NCBI GenBank assembly: GCA_030832185.1 | Contig: JAURJQ010000009.1 | Coordinates: 1 to 64,000, forward strand | Reading direction: 5' to 3' | Origin: Chitinophagales bacterium | Lineage (GTDB): Bacteria > Bacteroidota > Bacteroidia > Chitinophagales > JADJOU01 | Length of the DNA: 64,000 nucleotides | In this document: positions 1 through 9,430 of the stretch, piece by piece | How positions within the stretch are numbered: the stretch's first letter is position 1 | Layout of the letters: the number at the start of each line of letters is the position of its first letter | The notes under the pieces: model-generated | The model's database searches: none | The model's input: the letters and a program-made list of their open reading frames with translations, nothing else | Told to the model about the DNA's origin: nothing | Position numbers and translations under genes: made by a program

Positions 1-336
1 AATGACGGTGGAATTGATGGAATAATAAATGAAGACAAACTAGGACTTGACAAAATTTATATTCAGGCTAAAAGGTTTAATGAAGGTAAAGTAAGAGAAA
101 AGGACATTAGAAACTTTATTGGAGCAATGAGCGGTGACACAAATAAAGGTGTCTTTGTAACAACCTCTGATTTTGACGAAAAAGCCTTAGAAAAAGCACG
201 TTCGGCTCATCACAAAATCATCTGTATTGACGGACAAAAACTTGTGACATTAATGCATGAATTTAATGTAGGAATTCAAGTTCGGACGACTTATGAAATA
301 AAACAAATTGATGAAGACTTTTTCAACGAACAATAG
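1..336 (+). CDS. Mrr-type restriction endonuclease, C-terminal part
   Basis: The reading frame is open from base 1 and enters from outside the window; 111 codons are visible. It carries the Mrr-family nuclease core of the PD-(D/E)xK fold: a DGGIDG motif at residues 2-7 of the visible part, followed by QAKR at about residues 22-25, which supplies the Q/E-x-K half of the active site. The rest fits the end of the Mrr catalytic domain, including a GVFVTTSDF strand and a final helix. Mrr-family enzymes cleave modified or foreign DNA. It is the gene of the first, incomplete cassette of the array, and an attC-like palindrome starts 15 bases after its stop codon. Eight of its 11 visible Asp codons are GAC, unlike the chromosomal gene at 5284. 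Start and N-terminal recognition domain are outside the window. Confidence 0.8.
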   Translation, partial: NDGGIDGIINEDKLGLDKIYIQAKRFNEGKVREKDIRNFIGAMSGDTNKGVFVTTSDFDEKALEKARSAHHKIICIDGQKLVTLMHEFNVGIQVRTTYEIKQIDEDFFNEQ

Positions 337-350
337 AAGAGAACAACGAC

Positions 351-483
351 CCGCTAACAACTATTTTGCATAATGCTGGCTAGTTTACAGAATTTTAAAC
401 GTCTTACAATAATTAACTTTGGGCTTGTCTGACAATCTCGGGCTCCTAACCCAGCACTATGCAAAGTAGCCATACGTTGGCGG
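351..483 (+). repeat. attC-like site 1 (cassette A)
   Basis: Imperfect palindrome of 133 bp. The left core CCGCTAAC is at 351-358 and the right core GTTGGCGG at 476-483. The inner arms at 361-379 and 451-469 pair at 17 of 19 positions. The spacer between inner arm and core is longer on the right (470-475) than on the left (359-360), giving the asymmetric unpaired bases typical of attC sites. The predicted exchange point is between 476 and 477. Confidence 0.8.
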
Positions 484-582
484 TAATGGTAGCAAGACCT
501 AACTATACTTTAAAGACAAAATGAAAGTAACCTTATAGACATATCTCGAACGTTCTAGTAATAAAACTAAATCAGGAGAAAA

Positions 583-993
583 ATGGCAAAGAAAAAAACT
601 TGGTTAGAAAAATTAAATGAAAAAAAACAGCCAAAAATTAAACGAATTGAATTTGATTTTGCAGACATTCCTGCTGGAAGCAATATGTTTATCGCTACAC
701 CTAAACTAATTGACCAGTATATTAAAGAAATTAGGTTTGGAAAGCGTATAGACACAAAAACTTTACGGAAAGACCTTGCTTTGGAACATAATGCAGACTA
801 TACTTGTCCTGTAACAACAGGATTTTTTTTAAGAATTGTTGCTGAAGCCAATTATGAAAAATGGCAGCAAGGAGAAGCGTTAGAAGAAATTACACCTTTT
901 TGGAGAGTGATTGAACCGAATAGTGCATTAGCAAAAAAGCTTACTTTCGGACAAGACTTTTTATTGAAACAAATTGACAAGGAAAATGAATAA
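583..993 (+). CDS. Small MGMT-like family protein (cassette B)
   Basis: 136 codons, with a good ribosome binding site (AGGAG at 574-578) in front of the ATG. The N-terminus is lysine-rich, a central segment reads CPVTTGFF, and a later PFWRV motif follows. This pattern resembles, from memory, a family of roughly 130-residue bacterial proteins that databases label as MGMT family (O6-methylguanine-DNA methyltransferase-like). The classical PCHRV active-site motif of true alkyltransferases is not present, so repair activity cannot be claimed; the Cys in the CP motif is the only candidate nucleophile. It is the sole gene of cassette B (477-1175), and seven of its eight Asp codons are GAC, which differs from the chromosomal gene at 5284. 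Confidence 0.6.
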   Translation: MAKKKTWLEKLNEKKQPKIKRIEFDFADIPAGSNMFIATPKLIDQYIKEIRFGKRIDTKTLRKDLALEHNADYTCPVTTGFFLRIVAEANYEKWQQGEALEEITPFWRVIEPNSALAKKLTFGQDFLLKQIDKENE

Positions 994-1003
994 AACACCA
1001 CTA

Positions 1004-1182
1004 CCGCCAACAGCACCTAAAACCAATGCGGGGTGACGGAAGTTCACGCGCCGAACTTTCAGCGGTGTAAACTTTTGTTGGGCGCGTTCAATAACGGATA
1101 GGATTTTTTTATTAAGTTTGGGAAGTAAAGAATGGAAAGTGCTCTAAAGCCCTCACTGGCTTTAGATGCGGACCGTTAGCGG
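1004..1182 (+). repeat. attC-like site 2 (cassette B)
   Basis: Imperfect palindrome of 179 bp, the longest of the five. The left core CCGCCAAC is at 1004-1011 and the right core GTTAGCGG at 1175-1182. The inner arms at 1013-1028 and 1154-1169 pair at 13 of 16 positions, the differences being transitions. The left core is an exact complement of GTTGGCGG at 476-483, where cassette B begins, and the match extends to ten bases with the flanking TA. The predicted exchange point is between 1175 and 1176. Confidence 0.8.
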
Positions 1183-1227
1183 TAAGTTTACTAATGACAT
1201 TAAACCAATTAGACAATAGTAAGTCTA

Positions 1228-2085
1228 ATGAAAAAACAAAGATATATGAGATTTCTAATTTTACTTTCAGTAATACTTTTTTCTTGCAGTAAGGACAATA
1301 GCACAGATACACCAATCCCAACTGCTTACCGACAAACTAAAACCATTTCTTATAATTCGGTTAGTGTTGATGTTATAATAGATAAACCAGCAAGAAACGA
1401 CCTAGATGTTTTGCTAGTATTTCACGGAAGTGTAACCTCAGATAGTGAAATTCTCACTGCTGCAAATAACACCCTAGATAAATTCAAAGGAATTTTGGAT
1501 AGAAATGACATGATGATTGTAAGTGTAGCTTATCCGCAAGAATTTGTCTTGTTAGGTGATAATATTGTCAAATGTGAGGCTGCATTATTATGGTTGAAGA
1601 ATAAAGCAAATCAAGAATTAGGGATAACTGTAAAAAAAATATTCTTGGGAGGACATTCGCAAGGAGGCTATATGGTAACAAGGCTTAACACAATGCATCA
1701 GACAAATGGAGTTATTGCAAATGCACCTGGTCCATTAAATCTTGTTTATAGATGTCAATTAGAGGAAAATGGGCAAATTCAACCAAGTGCTGTATGCACA
1801 AAATTGAAAAACGTATATGGGACTACATCAAGCAATCCTAATCCATATTTTCAAAGATCCTTACTTAATTTTGCCAATGGGTTTAAGTCTGACATTTTAT
1901 TTGTTCAAGGATTAAGTGACTCTCCGATTCAACTATACACTTGGCCAACTTTTAAACAAGATGTACTAAGTTGTACAAATTGCCAAAACAGCCAGTTTGT
2001 TGAGATTACAGGTGGTGGACACGGCTCTTTATTTGAAAGCCCGATTGGGAAGACTGAATTTAACAACTTTATAAATAACCATTAA
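1228..2085 (+). CDS. Lipoprotein alpha/beta-hydrolase, esterase-like (cassette C)
   Basis: 285 codons. The N-terminus is a lipoprotein signal peptide with lipobox Cys20 (LFSC), followed by a short polar linker, so the protein should be lipidated and sit on a membrane face. The hydrolase fold shows an oxyanion-loop HGS near residue 67, the nucleophile elbow GHSQG with Ser144, and a GGGHGS motif with a likely catalytic His265. It is a distant relative of the PHB-depolymerase/CE1 esterase group, closest in layout to the two following cassette genes but clearly divergent. The substrate is unknown. It is the only gene of cassette C (1176-2224), and an attC-like site begins 12 bases after the stop codon. 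Asp codons here are mixed (5 GAC, 9 GAT), unlike cassettes A, B and E. Confidence 0.72.
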   Translation: MKKQRYMRFLILLSVILFSCSKDNSTDTPIPTAYRQTKTISYNSVSVDVIIDKPARNDLDVLLVFHGSVTSDSEILTAANNTLDKFKGILDRNDMMIVSVAYPQEFVLLGDNIVKCEAALLWLKNKANQELGITVKKIFLGGHSQGGYMVTRLNTMHQTNGVIANAPGPLNLVYRCQLEENGQIQPSAVCTKLKNVYGTTSSNPNPYFQRSLLNFANGFKSDILFVQGLSDSPIQLYTWPTFKQDVLSCTNCQNSQFVEITGGGHGSLFESPIGKTEFNNFINNH

Positions 2086-2097
2086 TGATAAAACCTA

Positions 2098-2232
2098 CCG
2101 CTAACAGCAGTTTGGCAAAATGGCGGGTTCGGTGCTAAATTGAACACTCGATTTTCAAATGAACATTACTGCTAAATTGAAAGCAAATACTTCTAAATCC
2201 CCCACTGCGTCAAGCCGAAAAACGTTATGTGC
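2098..2232 (+). repeat. attC-like site 3 (cassette C)
   Basis: Imperfect palindrome of 135 bp. The left core CCGCTAAC is at 2098-2105 and the right core GTTATGTGC at 2224-2232. The inner arms (about 2107-2126 and 2201-2217) pair less perfectly than in sites 1, 2 and 5. The left core is the exact complement of GTTAGCGG at 1175-1182, where cassette C begins; the match runs ten bases. The loop region carries an 11-base direct repeat, GCTAAATTGAA, at 2134-2144 and 2171-2181. Confidence 0.75.
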
Positions 2233-2315
2233 TATTTTAAAAAAAAACGTACCAAGATTAAACCTTTCAATGAAAATAATATCTAACCGAGAATAACACT
2301 CTAAATAAATGAAAT

Positions 2316-3302
2316 ATGATTAGAATATTTTTATCATTGATCGTGATTATTATCCTTGGTTGTAACAAGGATGACGACAATCCAAATCCTTCAAATCCTA
2401 ATTTTATTCCATACCAAGAAGGTTTGACAACAAATTATATAACAATTAACAACATTACCAGAAAATATTTAGTTTATAGACCAACAGGAATGACAGCTGT
2501 AAATGCTGTTGTAATAGTTCTACACGGTGGCGGTGGACTTGGTATTGGAGTTTCAGAAATAGGCGCTCATCCATTATCCGTTTTTCGGACAATTGCAGAC
2601 AATGAAAAGTTTTTAGTAGTCTATCCAGAAGGTTCACTCGACATTCAAGGAAATCCTGGATGGAATGATTGTAGAAGTGATGATATATCAGGAAGTCAAG
2701 GTGACGACATTACCTTTTTGAAACAGTTAAATTCAAAATTAATCTCAGAGTTAAATATTAATTCAAACAAAATGTTTTTAACAGGGACAAGTAATGGTGC
2801 TTTAATGACCTATTCTTATGCTTTTCAATTTCCTGAAACTATTAAAGCGATAGCCGTTTCAAGTGGGAATTTACCTGAGTTTCCTGAAAGCGGACTTTGT
2901 ACAAATGGCTCTAATCTACCATTGCCAATCTTGATAACTCACGGAACAAGCGACCCTGCAATGCCAGCAAATGGGGGTTGTGTAGCAAATATTGGTGGCA
3001 ATTGTAATCGTGGAAAAGTAATATCTCAAACTGCAACTTTAAATTATTGGTTACAAAGAAACGGTTTACAAAATATTACTCCGACTATATCAACTTTTAA
3101 TGTGAACACAACTGATGCAGGAAATGTAGAAAAAAGAATTTATGGTGGCGCAAAACCTTTGGGTTACTTTGTTCTAAATAACGCTGGACACGCTGTGCCA
3201 AGTAAGACAGTTTATACCGATTCTTCACCTGCAAGTGGAATTCAAAATAGAGATATAGAATATGCGGAAGAAGTTTGGAACTTTTTTAAAGGAATTCCAT
3301 AA
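2316..3302 (+). CDS. Lipoprotein esterase, PHB-depolymerase/CE1-like (cassette D)
   Basis: 328 codons. The signal peptide ends in lipobox Cys16 (ILGC) followed by an Asp/Asn/Pro-rich linker, so it is a lipoprotein. The domain is the alpha/beta-hydrolase of secreted PHB depolymerase/feruloyl-esterase type: an HGGGG oxyanion motif near residue 70, a YPEG motif near 105, WND near 118, the nucleophile elbow GTSNG with Ser159, an ITHGTSDP motif containing the likely catalytic Asp, and AGHAVP with His292. The substrate could be a polyester or an esterified polysaccharide; the sequence does not decide. It is the only gene of cassette D (2225-3434) and is paralogous to the gene at 3495. Confidence 0.8.
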   Translation: MIRIFLSLIVIIILGCNKDDDNPNPSNPNFIPYQEGLTTNYITINNITRKYLVYRPTGMTAVNAVVIVLHGGGGLGIGVSEIGAHPLSVFRTIADNEKFLVVYPEGSLDIQGNPGWNDCRSDDISGSQGDDITFLKQLNSKLISELNINSNKMFLTGTSNGALMTYSYAFQFPETIKAIAVSSGNLPEFPESGLCTNGSNLPLPILITHGTSDPAMPANGGCVANIGGNCNRGKVISQTATLNYWLQRNGLQNITPTISTFNVNTTDAGNVEKRIYGGAKPLGYFVLNNAGHAVPSKTVYTDSSPASGIQNRDIEYAEEVWNFFKGIP

Positions 3303-3307
3303 AAACA

Positions 3308-3442
3308 GTACACAACAGCAGTTTGGAAAATGGCGGGTTCGATGCTAAATTGAACATTTGGTTTTCAAATGAGGTTTAGTGCTAAATTGAAAGTAAGTGG
3401 TCCGAAAACTCCCACTGCACCAACCGCCAAACCGCAAGTGGC
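3308..3442 (+). repeat. attC-like site 4 (cassette D), right core degenerate
   Basis: Imperfect palindrome of 135 bp, closely similar to site 3 through its left arm and loop. The left core GTACACAAC is at 3308-3316. The right core reads GCAAGTGGC at 3434-3442, so the normally invariant GTT is GCA. The loop again holds GCTAAATTGAA twice (3344-3354 and 3381-3391), at the same 37-base spacing as in site 3. The left core resembles the complement of GTTATGTGCT at 2224-2233, where cassette D begins, with transitions. Confidence 0.7.
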
Positions 3443-3494
3443 AATTAAACCAAACGACACTTAAAAAGTCTAATTGAAATAAATTTAAGAAATA

Positions 3495-4442
3495 ATGAGA
3501 CAAATAATTTTACTTTTAACAGTTCTGTTTACACTTCTCTCGTGTAATAAAAATGACAACCCAACTGCAACTGCTGACAAAGCAAGTGAACAAAAAACAG
3601 TAAACCTCACAGTTGACGGAAACGAAAGAAGTTTCATAGTTTATCTTCCGAAAGGTTACAACAACGCAGGTAAAATGCCTATGATTTTTGCCATTCACGG
3701 AGGAAGTGGAACACCAGAAGGAATGATAAACATTGCTAATTTCAAAACTATTGCCGACAGAGACAAGGTTGTTTTGGTTTATCCAGCAGGAATTCAAAAT
3801 AATTGGAACGATGGAAGACCAACAACACCAAATCAATTAGGAATTAACGATGTTAATTTTTTCAACCAATTGTGCGATTATATGATTGCAAATAATTCAG
3901 TTGACGGAACAAAAATCTATGCAACAGGTATTTCTAACGGTGGTTTTATGTCTTCGCGTTTGGGCTGTGAATTAAGTAATAGAATTGCAGCTATTGCGGT
4001 GGACGCTGCCACAATAGAAGCAACAACAATAGCCCCAAGCTGTAATCCAGGCAGACCAGTTCCCGCAATTTATATTCACGGAACAACCGACCCTCTTGTT
4101 CCTTTTACGGGAGGACAAATGACCACAGGTGGAACAGCAGGTGGAACTATTTTATCTCATTTTCAAGCCATAGACAAATGGGTAACAATTAATGGCTGTA
4201 ACTCTACACCAACAATTACTGATTTACCCGACATTGCAAATGACGGAACAACAATAAAACAAAGGGTTTATTCGGGAGGTACAAACGGAAGCGAAGTAGT
4301 GAGTTACGTTGTTTTGAATGGCGGACATACTTGGCCACAAGGTTATCAATATTTGAATGAAGCCATTATTGGCAAAACAAGTCAAGATATGAATGCTTGT
4401 GAAGTAATTTGGACATTTTTTAAACGATTTAAACGACAATAA
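3495..4442 (+). CDS. Lipoprotein esterase, PHB-depolymerase/CE1-like (cassette E)
   Basis: 315 codons. The signal peptide ends in lipobox Cys17 (LLSC) with a polar linker. The hydrolase domain shows HGGSG near residue 74, YPAG and NWNDGR near 100-112, the nucleophile elbow GISNGG with Ser147, IHGTTDP with the likely catalytic Asp near 203, and GGHTWP with His278. HGTxDP and GGHTWP are characteristic of the LpqC/PHB-depolymerase and feruloyl-esterase group. It is probably a cell-surface or periplasmic esterase. Eleven of 16 Asp codons are GAC, against 1 of 14 in the chromosomal gene at 5284, which fits a separate origin. It is the last cassette of the array (3435-4543). Confidence 0.82.
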   Translation: MRQIILLLTVLFTLLSCNKNDNPTATADKASEQKTVNLTVDGNERSFIVYLPKGYNNAGKMPMIFAIHGGSGTPEGMINIANFKTIADRDKVVLVYPAGIQNNWNDGRPTTPNQLGINDVNFFNQLCDYMIANNSVDGTKIYATGISNGGFMSSRLGCELSNRIAAIAVDAATIEATTIAPSCNPGRPVPAIYIHGTTDPLVPFTGGQMTTGGTAGGTILSHFQAIDKWVTINGCNSTPTITDLPDIANDGTTIKQRVYSGGTNGSEVVSYVVLNGGHTWPQGYQYLNEAIIGKTSQDMNACEVIWTFFKRFKRQ

Positions 4443-4451
4443 AAATTAACT

Positions 4452-4550
4452 GCCACTAACAGGGGTTTTGCAAAAAAGCGGTTTCATTGCTAAATTTGAA
4501 CATTTGTGCTTCTAATTCCGCTTCTTCGCAAAGCTGTAAAACGTTATGAC
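4452..4550 (+). repeat. attC-like site 5 (cassette E), end of array
   Basis: Imperfect palindrome of 99 bp. The left core GCCACTAAC is at 4452-4460 and the right core GTTATGAC at 4543-4550. The inner arms at 4467-4481 and 4518-4532 pair at 13 of 15 positions. The left core and its flank are complementary to the start of cassette E (AGTGGCA at 3437-3443 and the TTAA that follows). A loop motif GCTAAATTTGAA (4489-4500) is shared with sites 3 and 4. No partner for the sequence after 4543 is seen downstream, so the chromosome resumes here. Confidence 0.78.
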
Positions 4551-4702
4551 ACACAATCATCAAAAGGATCAATATAACAGCATTACTTATTGGAAGATAA
4601 CTATCTTGTGAGAGGATAGTAATTAGTCAAAAAGAAATTTATACTGGCGAAAAAGAGCTTACTTTTTAAAGTTTCCACCAGACTCATTGCTAAATAAAAA
4701 CG

Positions 4703-6259: not shown

Positions 6260-9136
6260 ATGTTCAAATCATTACTTACTGCGCTATCCCTTCTTTTGAT
6301 CACCCATCTATCTGCCCAGTCAGTCTCGGGTATGGTCCAGGATAGCAAAACAGGTGAGCCGATGGAACGGGTACTCATTGTAATCTTAGAACAAAAAAAA
6401 ACCGTCCCTGTAGCTACTACCTATACCAATGCCAAGGGCCAGTTTAGCTTTGAGAATTTGAAATTTAAAGATCAAGAATTTACCTTGACTACCAAAATGG
6501 TGGGCTATACAGAATTTCAAGAAATCTATAAAACCAGCCAATTTCCGCTAAAAATCAATATAAAACTAGATCCCACAGCCAGCCAGCTAAAAGAAGTAGA
6601 TATAGAAGGAACGAGAGCCCGAGTGACCATAAAAGATGATACCGTGAGCTACGATGCGAAAGCATTTAAGACCCATAAAGATGCCAATGTAGAAGACCTG
6701 GTGACTAAAATGCCAGGAATCACTCGAGAAGGTGGAGAGGTAAAAGCCTATGGTGAGAAGGTCCAAAAAGTATTAGTGGACGGACAAGAATTTTTCGGTG
6801 AAGATGCCAATATCGCTCTTAAAAACCTGCCTGCCGAGACGGTAGATAAGGTGGAGATATTCGATGCAATGAGTGATAGAAATGCCTTTACAGGCTTCAA
6901 CGATGGGAATACAACCAAGACGATGAATCTCAAAACGAAACCTGGCATGAATAAAGGGAATTTCGGCAAAGGGTATGCTGGATATGGTACCACAGGCAGA
7001 TATCAGCTAGGAGGGAACTATAACTATTACAATGGCTCAAAGCGCATATCCATGCTAGGTATGGCTAATAATATCAATAACCTTAATTTCTCTACCTCTG
7101 AGATAGTAGGAGCAATGACGGGTTCTAGCAATATGGGGGGAGTAGGTGGCGCTAATATGATGCGCGGAATGAGTTTCGGGATGAGTGTATCGGGAGCAGG
7201 AGGCCGCAGAGGTGGTTTCGGCGGACCAATGTCTAATTTTACGGTATCGAACCGCGATGGTATCAATGATGCATATTCCTTCGGAATGAACTATAATGAC
7301 AAGTGGGGTAAAAACAAAAACACGACTGTGAATATGAGTTATTTCGGAAATAGAACGGATAACACAATGCTAGGCCAAACCAATCAAAGAAACCTGCTGG
7401 ATACCTTAAACACATTGACTACAAATCAGAATGAGGGCAATACGGACGCTAATTTTAAGCACCGCTTCTCTAGTAGAATAGACGGTAAACTAGACCATAA
7501 GAATAGCTATATCTGGACGAATAAACTCAATTTCGGAGATAATAATGGAGTCTACAGAACAGAGGTGAATAACTTTTTCGAACTCAGCGGAGGTAGCTTG
7601 AAAAATATTAACCAAACTAGTACCATTTCGAGGTCTGTTGATTTTAATACTAACTTTTTATACAAATATGCTTTTAATAGAAAAGGTCGAACCTTTTCCC
7701 TCAACTCTATAGTAGATGTCAATTCCCAAAAAGGAAATTCTCTTCAAAATATAAATACAGAGCGCGGGGGTCTAACCAACATCTTTGGTCTAGATTACGT
7801 GACCAATCAGTGGACATCTACTTTTACCAATATTCTGACCTATACAGAACCTAGCGGTAAATATGGCCAGTGGCTCATCAACTATAGTCCATCTTTTACT
7901 AATAGAAGAAATGATCGTGAGGTCAGTACCTTTAATAATGCAAACCCTTCTCCTTTATTGGCAGATAGCTTATCCAATAATTTTACGAATAATTTATTTT
8001 ACAACATCGGCGGACTGAGCTATCGATTACAATATAGCAAATGGAGAATTATGTTTGGATCTAACGTACAAAATATCAATTTTCAAGGTCAAGAGCGATA
8101 TCCGGGTAATAGCCGCCTAGAGCGAAATTTCTTTGGCGTCTTGCCTTATTTCAATATTCAGTTCAATTCCTCCCCGATGAATCGATTGAGATTGACATAC
8201 AATACCAATATGAATGTGCCGTCTATAAGTCAGATACAGCCGGTGCTCGATCTATCTAATCCGGTATCTATCTATAGAGGTAATGAAAATCTAACGAATG
8301 AATACAGTCACAATCTATTCTTTCATTATATGAAGCCAAATATAGTGAAGGGTACATTTCTAATTTTTGTATCTAATCTAAACTATACATCGAATAGAAT
8401 TTCGAGCTACAGCTATACCGCTGTCAATGATACTACCATAGACAATATTGGGCTCAGAAGAGGAATCACCTACAATAAAAATGTAAATATGGATCATGCC
8501 TTTACTGGTTTCTTATTTGCCAACTATACGCTACCTATTAAGCCCTTAAAATCTAATTTTAGTATCAATGGAAATTATACCTATTCTCAGAATCCATCAA
8601 CCATTAATCTTAGGGAGAATATGACCCGCTCGAATATGTTCTCCATAGGATCTATGCTATCGAGTAATGTGAGTCCTGATGTAGATTTTTCTCTGAGTTA
8701 TAATCCCAAATACTTTATTAATACATTCAGTCTAGAAGGCTTGCCAAATAATAACTATTGGATACATACGGTAGCTAACAACATACGTCTTACTTTATTC
8801 AAAAACTTCGTCTGGAGTTATGACTTTTCCTACAACTACAATAGCCAAATAGATGCCGCTATTAATCAACATGTATTTCTCATGGGGTCTAGTCTTGCAT
8901 TTAAGTTCTTAAAAAATAGACAACTAGAAGCTAAAATCAGTATCTTTGACCTACTAAATCAAAATCAAAATATCAGCAGAACCATCACTAATAATGCGAT
9001 CATAGATTCGAGAGTCAATGCTATGAATAGATATGGAATGTTTACCCTGACCTATAGCATAAAGAAATTTCAAGGCTCTGACCCAGATAAAAAAGCAGGG
9101 GGATTTATGCAAATGATGACGCCAAAAAGCGACTAA
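6260..9136 (+). CDS. TonB-dependent-receptor-like outer membrane beta-barrel protein
   Basis: 958 codons. A signal peptide (residues 1-19, ending in AQ) is followed by a carboxypeptidase-like regulatory domain (about 20-110), a plug-like region (about 110-240, with VLVDGQEFFGED) and a long barrel rich in aromatic and Asn residues up to the C-terminus. This layout is that of the Bacteroidota outer membrane beta-barrel family related to SusC. No SusD partner follows, so the substrate cannot be guessed from context. A segment at residues 284-327 is very rich in Gly and Met (many GG, MGG and RRGGFGG runs) and may be a surface loop. The next gene begins at the base after its stop codon, so the two are translationally adjacent. 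Confidence 0.85.
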   Translation: MFKSLLTALSLLLITHLSAQSVSGMVQDSKTGEPMERVLIVILEQKKTVPVATTYTNAKGQFSFENLKFKDQEFTLTTKMVGYTEFQEIYKTSQFPLKINIKLDPTASQLKEVDIEGTRARVTIKDDTVSYDAKAFKTHKDANVEDLVTKMPGITREGGEVKAYGEKVQKVLVDGQEFFGEDANIALKNLPAETVDKVEIFDAMSDRNAFTGFNDGNTTKTMNLKTKPGMNKGNFGKGYAGYGTTGRYQLGGNYNYYNGSKRISMLGMANNINNLNFSTSEIVGAMTGSSNMGGVGGANMMRGMSFGMSVSGAGGRRGGFGGPMSNFTVSNRDGINDAYSFGMNYNDKWGKNKNTTVNMSYFGNRTDNTMLGQTNQRNLLDTLNTLTTNQNEGNTDANFKHRFSSRIDGKLDHKNSYIWTNKLNFGDNNGVYRTEVNNFFELSGGSLKNINQTSTISRSVDFNTNFLYKYAFNRKGRTFSLNSIVDVNSQKGNSLQNINTERGGLTNIFGLDYVTNQWTSTFTNILTYTEPSGKYGQWLINYSPSFTNRRNDREVSTFNNANPSPLLADSLSNNFTNNLFYNIGGLSYRLQYSKWRIMFGSNVQNINFQGQERYPGNSRLERNFFGVLPYFNIQFNSSPMNRLRLTYNTNMNVPSISQIQPVLDLSNPVSIYRGNENLTNEYSHNLFFHYMKPNIVKGTFLIFVSNLNYTSNRISSYSYTAVNDTTIDNIGLRRGITYNKNVNMDHAFTGFLFANYTLPIKPLKSNFSINGNYTYSQNPSTINLRENMTRSNMFSIGSMLSSNVSPDVDFSLSYNPKYFINTFSLEGLPNNNYWIHTVANNIRLTLFKNFVWSYDFSYNYNSQIDAAINQHVFLMGSSLAFKFLKNRQLEAKISIFDLLNQNQNISRTITNNAIIDSRVNAMNRYGMFTLTYSIKKFQGSDPDKKAGGFMQMMTPKSD

Positions 9137-9430
9137 ATGAAGCGCAATAAAGAAGTCACTAAAGTATCAGATAGTTTTGACCAATGGTTGGACAAAAATC
9201 ATTATAAGGAAAAGTCCCTCAATTTTAAAATAGCGGAAAACTGGCAGGAAATAGCAGGGAATACGATTCATAACCATACAGAACGAATTGATGTGAGGAT
9301 TCCAAAAATTTTTTTAAAAGTTAATAATTCGTCTTTAAAAGAAATGCTCTACCATGATAGCCGCCTGCTCATAGATAAGATAAATCAATATTTGGGGCAA
9401 AATTGTGTCAAAGAGATTATCTTTACGTAA
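9137..9430 (+). CDS. DUF721/DciA-like protein
   Basis: 97 codons beginning at the base after the upstream stop codon. The length and the pattern WQEIAGNTIHNHTERIDVR, then a hydrophobic FLKVNNSSLKEML segment and a C-terminal helix ending in VKEIIF, match the small Bacteroidota DUF721 proteins. The larger DUF721 family includes DciA, which loads the replicative helicase DnaB in bacteria lacking DnaC-type loaders. A role in replication initiation is therefore plausible but has not been shown for this short form. The tight coupling to a barrel gene looks accidental rather than functional. Confidence 0.8.
   Translation: MKRNKEVTKVSDSFDQWLDKNHYKEKSLNFKIAENWQEIAGNTIHNHTERIDVRIPKIFLKVNNSSLKEMLYHDSRLLIDKINQYLGQNCVKEIIFT

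Follow-up and report, generated by a model that had tools for sequence, protein, structure and literature searches.

A probable integron-like cassette system specific to Bacteroidia, with integrases that lack the I2 domain

When an integron cassette is excised as a circle, its two ends are joined and form one attC site; in an integron array, the two boxes of one site come from two cassettes. The recombining strand of such sites is the bottom strand (PMC2727003). The additional (I2) domain of the integron integrase, which docks extrahelical bases, is held to be a requirement of cassette capture (PMC7790495); surveys and IntegronFinder select for it (PMC2426708, PMC9668308). An integron architecture without the I2 domain would escape tools that select on that domain. 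IntegronFinder 2.0 identified one complete integron in Bacteroidetes proper, in Salinibacter (PMC9024848). Here we analyse 64,000 nt of a Chitinophagales genome (the window; source assembly of 2.2 Mb in 31 contigs). We estimate a probability of about 0.93 that a sedentary cassette array on the chromosome has its distal part at positions 1–4637 of the window, and that this array belongs to an integron-like system specific to Bacteroidia. Comparison of sequences also gives us high confidence that the system would work like an integron. Our search of the literature, which took in few subscription papers and no preprints, found no description of this system, and we claim no priority.

Positions 1–4637 contain five plus-strand ORFs with one imperfect palindrome after each, which bears out an earlier sequence-only reading that had described five single-gene units on this strand with palindromic ends. 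The ORFs stop at 336, 993, 2085, 3302 and 4442, and the palindromes begin 2–10 nt downstream when their 12-nt outer boxes are included; counted with 8-nt cores they are 98–179 bp long. The same reading had correctly given AAC at the end of all five left cores and GTT at the start of four of the five right cores; in site 4 the right core starts with GCA. Coordinates of sites given below take in the 12-nt boxes, and all features lie on the plus strand. Cassette A (1–475) holds a gene for an Mrr-type restriction endonuclease, of which the 3' part is present (ORF 1–336; Pfam PF04471 Mrr_cat, E = 9.8e-24); the cassette is cut on its left because base 1 of the window is base 1 of contig C2. In attC-like site 1 (347–487; 106 bits with R1, the covariance model described below) a 12-nt left box, a 1-nt spacer, stem, loop, stem, a 5-nt spacer and the 12-nt right box GTTGGCGGTAAT follow one another. 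Cassette B (476–1174), delimited from the ORF list and by the pairing of its own ends, contains a 136-aa ORF (583–993) for which family searches gave no match; its end, ACCACTACCGCCAAC, is complementary to its own start, GTTGGCGGTAATGGT. Site 2 (1000–1186) has a long loop. Cassette C (1175–2223), placed from the ORF list and Pfam, encodes a 285-aa lipoprotein-type alpha/beta hydrolase (ORF 1228–2085); its end AAACCTACCGCTAAC is likewise complementary to its start GTTAGCGGTAAGTTT, and site 3 (2094–2235) scores 120 bits. Cassettes D (2224–3433) and E (3434–4542) encode lipoprotein-type esterases of the same family, a 328-aa PHB-depolymerase-like protein in D (ORF 2316–3302; NF050058, E = 2e-34, below the cut-off) and a 315-aa protein in E (ORF 3495–4442; NF050058, E = 7.5e-44). 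Site 4, with the GCA core, spans 3305–3445 (99 bits); site 5 (4449–4554; 82 bits) has a short loop and is the last recognisable site. Comparison with the sister species G003 defines, after site 5, a short remnant without an ORF that leads up to the end of the array (4543–4637), as well as the chromosomal point, TTTATACTGGCG (4638–4649), at which the array stops.

The window itself contains no integrase gene, as had been stated from the sequence. The integron-integrase model TIGR02249 identified one on contig C20 (5.1 kb) of the same genome. From left to right, C20 holds a trmH-type gene and an hsp15-type gene (identities that we assume from our reading of the ORFs), the integrase gene on the minus strand, the first cassette and a palindrome. 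The integrase is a tyrosine recombinase of 358 aa (PF00589, E = 1.8e-37), divergent to an attI that precedes its start by about 157 nt. The first cassette has two genes, a YHYH ORF and a sulfatase ORF, and ends in a sixth palindrome of the same kind. An integrase and an attI were what the earlier reading had proposed to look for next to the array, and the contig that carries both runs into cassette B: its last 119 bp (C20 5016–5134) are identical to window positions 474–592, starting two bases before the core GTT, and the sequences upstream are wholly different. In the genome or population that was sampled, two different cassettes thus stand before cassette B. The length of the overlap suggests an assembly k-mer, so both a strain mixture and a duplicated cassette are possible at the join of C20 and C2; the join is an assembly fork that could have either one behind it.

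Generic scans for AAC/GTT stems and for boxes plus stems returned noise, with similar counts on forward and reversed sequence, and a covariance model was therefore used instead. This model, R1, was built from a structural alignment of 15 sites with 28 base pairs, and its training set included window sites 1, 3, 4 and 5 and the C20 site. Covariation in the 15-site alignment was 0.404, compared with 0.145 ± 0.019 when partners were shuffled and no more than 0.098 when they were slid. When the 2.2-Mb genome was searched, array sites scored 82–120 bits and the next match 17 bits, so that a covariance model of the attC type does recover the array, and chance would fall far short of producing such a pattern; site 2, which was outside the training set, scored weakly (27.8 bits) because of its long loop. 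In 150 sites from eight genomes covariation was 0.471, compared with 0.137 ± 0.006; this larger alignment was fitted to R1 and is biased towards the model, whereas the 15-site alignment (A3) was not so fitted. The geometry of the 150 sites was uniform, with a left spacer of 1 nt in 139, a right spacer of 5 nt in 136 and a loop of 70–79 nt in 124; the longer right spacer noticed earlier in the window is thus real and general. At a single stem position, 144 of 148 sites had a mispair, which was A.C in 130 of them, and the pairs flanking this position covaried. The earlier impression that these sites differ from known attC sites was also correct. They share only AAC/GTT with the classical R boxes RYYYAAC / GTTRRRY, and 6.8% of 148 R boxes fit GTTRRRY, which is the chance level. 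No conserved extrahelical base was found in the 150 sites, any one stem insertion occurring in at most 16 of them. Searches of Rfam at E up to 1 gave no match, and R1 gave no significant match around canonical IntI genes.

From the logic of the excised integron circle we predicted that the two ends of one cassette would pair and that the two boxes of one linear site would not. This was observed in 118 inter-site intervals. The start of a cassette and its own end formed 9.13 Watson-Crick pairs over the 13 positions outside GTT/AAC, whereas the two boxes of one linear site formed 4.89, compared with 4.886 ± 0.138 for randomly matched boxes. As R1, which placed the boxes, holds within-site pairs only, it is biased against this result. 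For the cassettes of the window and C20, the true assignment of ends was the best of 120 permutations. When cassettes were closed as circles, the bottom strand was predicted to be more stable in 98 of 118 cases and the top strand in 14 (Wilcoxon, 9e-17). Relative to the linear form, the circle gained 7.3 kcal/mol in stability. At the level of sequence, these data demonstrate both end complementarity and a bottom-strand bias.

These results bear on the possibility that recombination is of the double-strand Xer/dif-like or invertase-like type, taking place at attI-like sites, and that the palindromes are incidental. The recombinase lacks an I2 domain and stands near the XerA/Xer family, and attI x attI recombination is reported to take the classical double-strand pathway (PMC7790495), both of which would fit this explanation. 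However, it accounts neither for the strength of the compensatory covariation, nor for a geometry kept so uniform (spacers of 1 and 5 nt, 72-nt loop), nor for the bottom-strand bias, and we consider it improbable. In the integron-like mechanism that we favour, a tyrosine recombinase (that of C20) would act on double-stranded attI and on the cassette-borne attC-like sites. Strand exchange beside the core GTT would then excise cassettes as circles or insert them at attI, as in integrons. The single-strand chemistry, the exact cut and the use of the C20 recombinase on these sites are what we infer.

The attI motif TKCGTMTATTTNNGAGTT, located upstream of the integrase start, matched 15–18 of 18 consensus positions in seven genomes, including the genome under study, in which integrases are 52–59% identical to the C20 integrase. 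Conservation runs to GAGTT and cassette-specific sequence begins directly after GTT, which places the cassette boundary at GTT as far as sequence conservation can define it. Where the first cassette could be read (L007, L048, L052 and L057), its start pairs with its own end. The motif was present in 17 of 395 genomes of the class, in up to 22 copies per genome, compared with a handful in all for the reversed control. Most copies are followed by differing cassette starts of the form GTTRNNRGYMAY; pattern matches in G428 and G497 lacked a typical cassette start after the motif and may be chance. Two layouts were found among 80 loci. The integrase is divergent in the first, with attI about 107–176 nt upstream, and co-directional in the second, with attI after its stop codon. 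A scan upstream of the integrases of L053–L056 and L058–L067 (about 45–60% identity) found no attI, a result that is partly explained by the relatives that carry attI downstream of the integrase stop. Several copies of attI are not accompanied by an intact integrase. A TATATTTG-like sequence within attI resembles the Bacteroidota -7 promoter element, and attI may also serve as a putative Pc-like promoter for the first cassettes.

We also considered that the genes are fixed and immobile and that the palindromes behind them are REP-like elements or terminators. The palindromes lie close behind stop codons and could end transcription. However, complementarity tracks cassette identity rather than adjacency, attI junctions fall at GTT, cassettes are exchanged and shared, and gene order is unconserved in relatives; we assign this explanation next to no probability. 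In sister species G003 the right flank is 93–96% identical and the array ends at the same chromosomal point. Its end point, GTTATGCTGGCG, directly follows a different lipoprotein cassette and its palindrome, for which the bottom strand (-24.8 kcal/mol) is predicted to be more stable than the top strand (-15.0 kcal/mol). A search for the order of the five window cassettes in relatives did not find it kept, and the last cassette differs in G003; cassette order had been singled out from the sequence as informative. Together with the sites recovered by R1 and the integrase in the same genome, this supports the earlier integron-like reading on all three points that could have spoken against it. The trmH-hsp15-integrase synteny is retained within the genus, and the integrase side is syntenic in G002. 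Within the genus, only the gene of cassette C has relatives at the DNA level, and these are found elsewhere and in other surroundings; the G001 relative (84%) was set aside as proof of mobility, having only a left half-site that looks decayed and lacking a clear start of the cassette. Sharing was observed over a greater distance for a 1.6-kb DUF6428 cassette with about 90% DNA identity between G289 and two genomes of another family, G524 and G497. The likeness spans cassette and site. The neighbouring attC sites are alike too, and G524 and G497 have some further upstream sequence in common, so that the edges are less sharp than those of a clean insertion. Arrays keep to one strand over tens of kb, with about 95 kb reached in G289, and 98 of 107 cassettes have their largest ORF on that strand. 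Cassette structure, sharing and turnover are thus established from sequence comparison. Plasmid and phage collections contained no close integrase, the best being about 34–44% identical, and a mobile platform is therefore unsupported there.

A further explanation is an ordinary IntI-type integron in an unusual phylum. The architecture is the same, the closest solved relative by sequence and fold is the Vibrio cholerae integron integrase VchIntIA (2A3V), followed by XerA-type proteins, and TIGR02249 matches the integrase. However, this match is in two pieces, with model positions 178–240 skipped, and the 40-residue insert that forms the IntI additional domain (I2) is missing from all 90 integrases of the family. 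The distance from KGxKxR to HxLRH is 58–61 residues in these 90 proteins, compared with 100–101 in 21 IntI proteins and 64–66 in the Xer-like proteins of the same genome. The Bacteroidia integrases form their own clade (support 98) apart from a fully supported IntI clade (100); a putative sister relation of the two has a support of 85, with long branches. With the chance-level fit to GTTRRRY and the blindness of R1 to canonical IntI loci, we regard an ordinary IntI integron as very unlikely. The best NCBIfam match was NF040815 (XerA; 207.9 bits, cut-off 220), and all XerA/XerC/XerD families fell below their cut-offs. An AlphaFold model of L214 (pLDDT 84, pTM only 0.51) lacks an inserted helix and shows an additional alpha/beta domain at the N-terminus. 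The joint absence of the I2 helix and of extrahelical bases would be the expected look of a co-evolved alternative. We did not file the system as an IntI integron because the I2 domain, which defines that group, and conserved extrahelical bases were looked for and found absent, and the classical R box fitted at chance level. In our judgement it is probably a second solution to cassette capture, with an ancestral or independent origin of the integron mechanism. Its integrases lack the I2 helix, strand choice would come from the A.C mismatch, the 1-nt and 5-nt spacers and outer boxes of 12–16 nt, and its sites occur in about two-thirds of the sampled Bacteroidia species.

R1 sites were present at E ≤ 1e-4 in 272 of 395 Bacteroidia species genomes (149 of 197 genera), with up to eight candidates scored per genome. 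A profile search (E < 1e-90) found a close integrase in at least 42 of the 395 genomes, a lower bound because few candidates were scored per genome. In a sample of the whole phylum, 105 of 395 genomes had canonical IntI above the curated cut-off; almost all of these are labelled as not belonging to the class of the window. The many genomes that carry dispersed sites and no close integrase might be explained if cassettes were individual transposons with palindromic ends (IS605-type or MITE-like). Each unit has a single palindrome, however, and the units form head-to-tail arrays on one strand that start from a conserved attI beside a recombinase. The cargo is diverse, and no transposase was seen in the cassettes checked; transposons are therefore a most improbable explanation. 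If the system is integron-like, as we propose, genomes with sites and no close integrase may hold dispersed cassettes, or a different recombinase may contribute as well. The system is apparently widespread in Bacteroidia, where complete integrons are reported to be very rare. It lets the origin of single-strand cassette recombination be tested directly in a natural system, opens a large cassette pool that includes candidate restriction and abortive-infection genes, and is a possible cloning tool for Bacteroidota.

Among known systems, the closest are the integrons (IntI/attI/attC), above all sedentary chromosomal ones like the Vibrio cholerae superintegron. Both have cassettes that are arranged head to tail and have paired ends, GTT/AAC cores, a bottom-strand bias, large arrays, and an integrase next to attI that in many members is divergent to it. 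In contrast to integron integrases, the Bacteroidia integrase is extended at its N-terminus by about 75 residues and lacks the additional (I2) domain. The R box is GTTRNNRGYMAY-like rather than GTTRRRY, and the sites have a fixed A.C mismatch and asymmetric spacers but no conserved extrahelical base. The Bacteroidia system further differs in its second layout, in which the array lies downstream of a co-directional integrase, and in having several attI per genome. XerA, XerC and XerD (NF040815, TIGR02224, TIGR02225) have the same fold as the Bacteroidia integrase. Unlike these, it adjoins attI and arrays and has no chromosome-dimer-resolution setting, and the same genome has separate Xer-like genes. 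For the 'Integron-like' subgroup of tyrosine recombinases, Smyshlyaev et al. (2021) hold the insertion to be essential for integron function; the parts considered here set out no cassette system for members that lack it (PMC8138268). The integron of Salinibacter ruber M1 is a complete one in the wider phylum; unlike the system described here, it was detected with models of the IntI-specific domain and of classical attC sites (PMC9024848).

The loops of the attC-like sites, the palindromes that end each cassette, had a fixed length of about 72 nt (e.g. the sites at 9037-9178 of the compared stretch L114 and at 2094-2235 of the window), and a second, less numerous class had loops of about 110-140 nt. 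Imperfect repeats such as AAATTGAACATTTGTGCT were present within the loops.

A second layout, in which the integrase gene was co-directional with the array, was observed at loci L244, L233, L249, L251, L263 and others, with attI often located 3' of the integrase stop codon. At L244, 9 kb contained a dozen strong sites.

Genome G088 contained 22 exact attI motifs (L098-L100) with similar upstream sequences and different cassette starts, although no integrase was found in this genome at E<1e-45. Apparently, these many single attI stations either are served in trans or were left behind. Decayed or truncated integrase genes adjoined attI copies at L109, L110, L111 and L116, and the same genome often held an intact integrase elsewhere. 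As two contigs (L015 and L016) of G002, a genome of the window's genus, both end at the same codon within integrase genes, we suggest that G002 has two integrase copies sharing a segment; these genes were 94% and 83% identical to that of C20, another contig of the window's genome.

Loci L048 and L052 from two genomes shared a two-gene cassette at different array positions. Its products (676-693 and 957-958 aa) look like a candidate restriction-modification pair, and a small HTH-type ORF preceded the cassette. Cassettes of the G289 array (L173-L177) encoded AIPR, GmrSD_N plus HNH, N6-methylase, NYN and PLD-type proteins; thus, arrays possibly serve as reservoirs of defence genes.

Residues 1-75 of integrase L007:1288-2361:- constitute an N-terminal extension with the motif WSxSxKxWY..D and a predicted beta-beta-alpha-beta-beta-alpha fold. 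This extension, which may be an additional domain for DNA binding, was found in none of the IntI and Xer sequences used for comparison.
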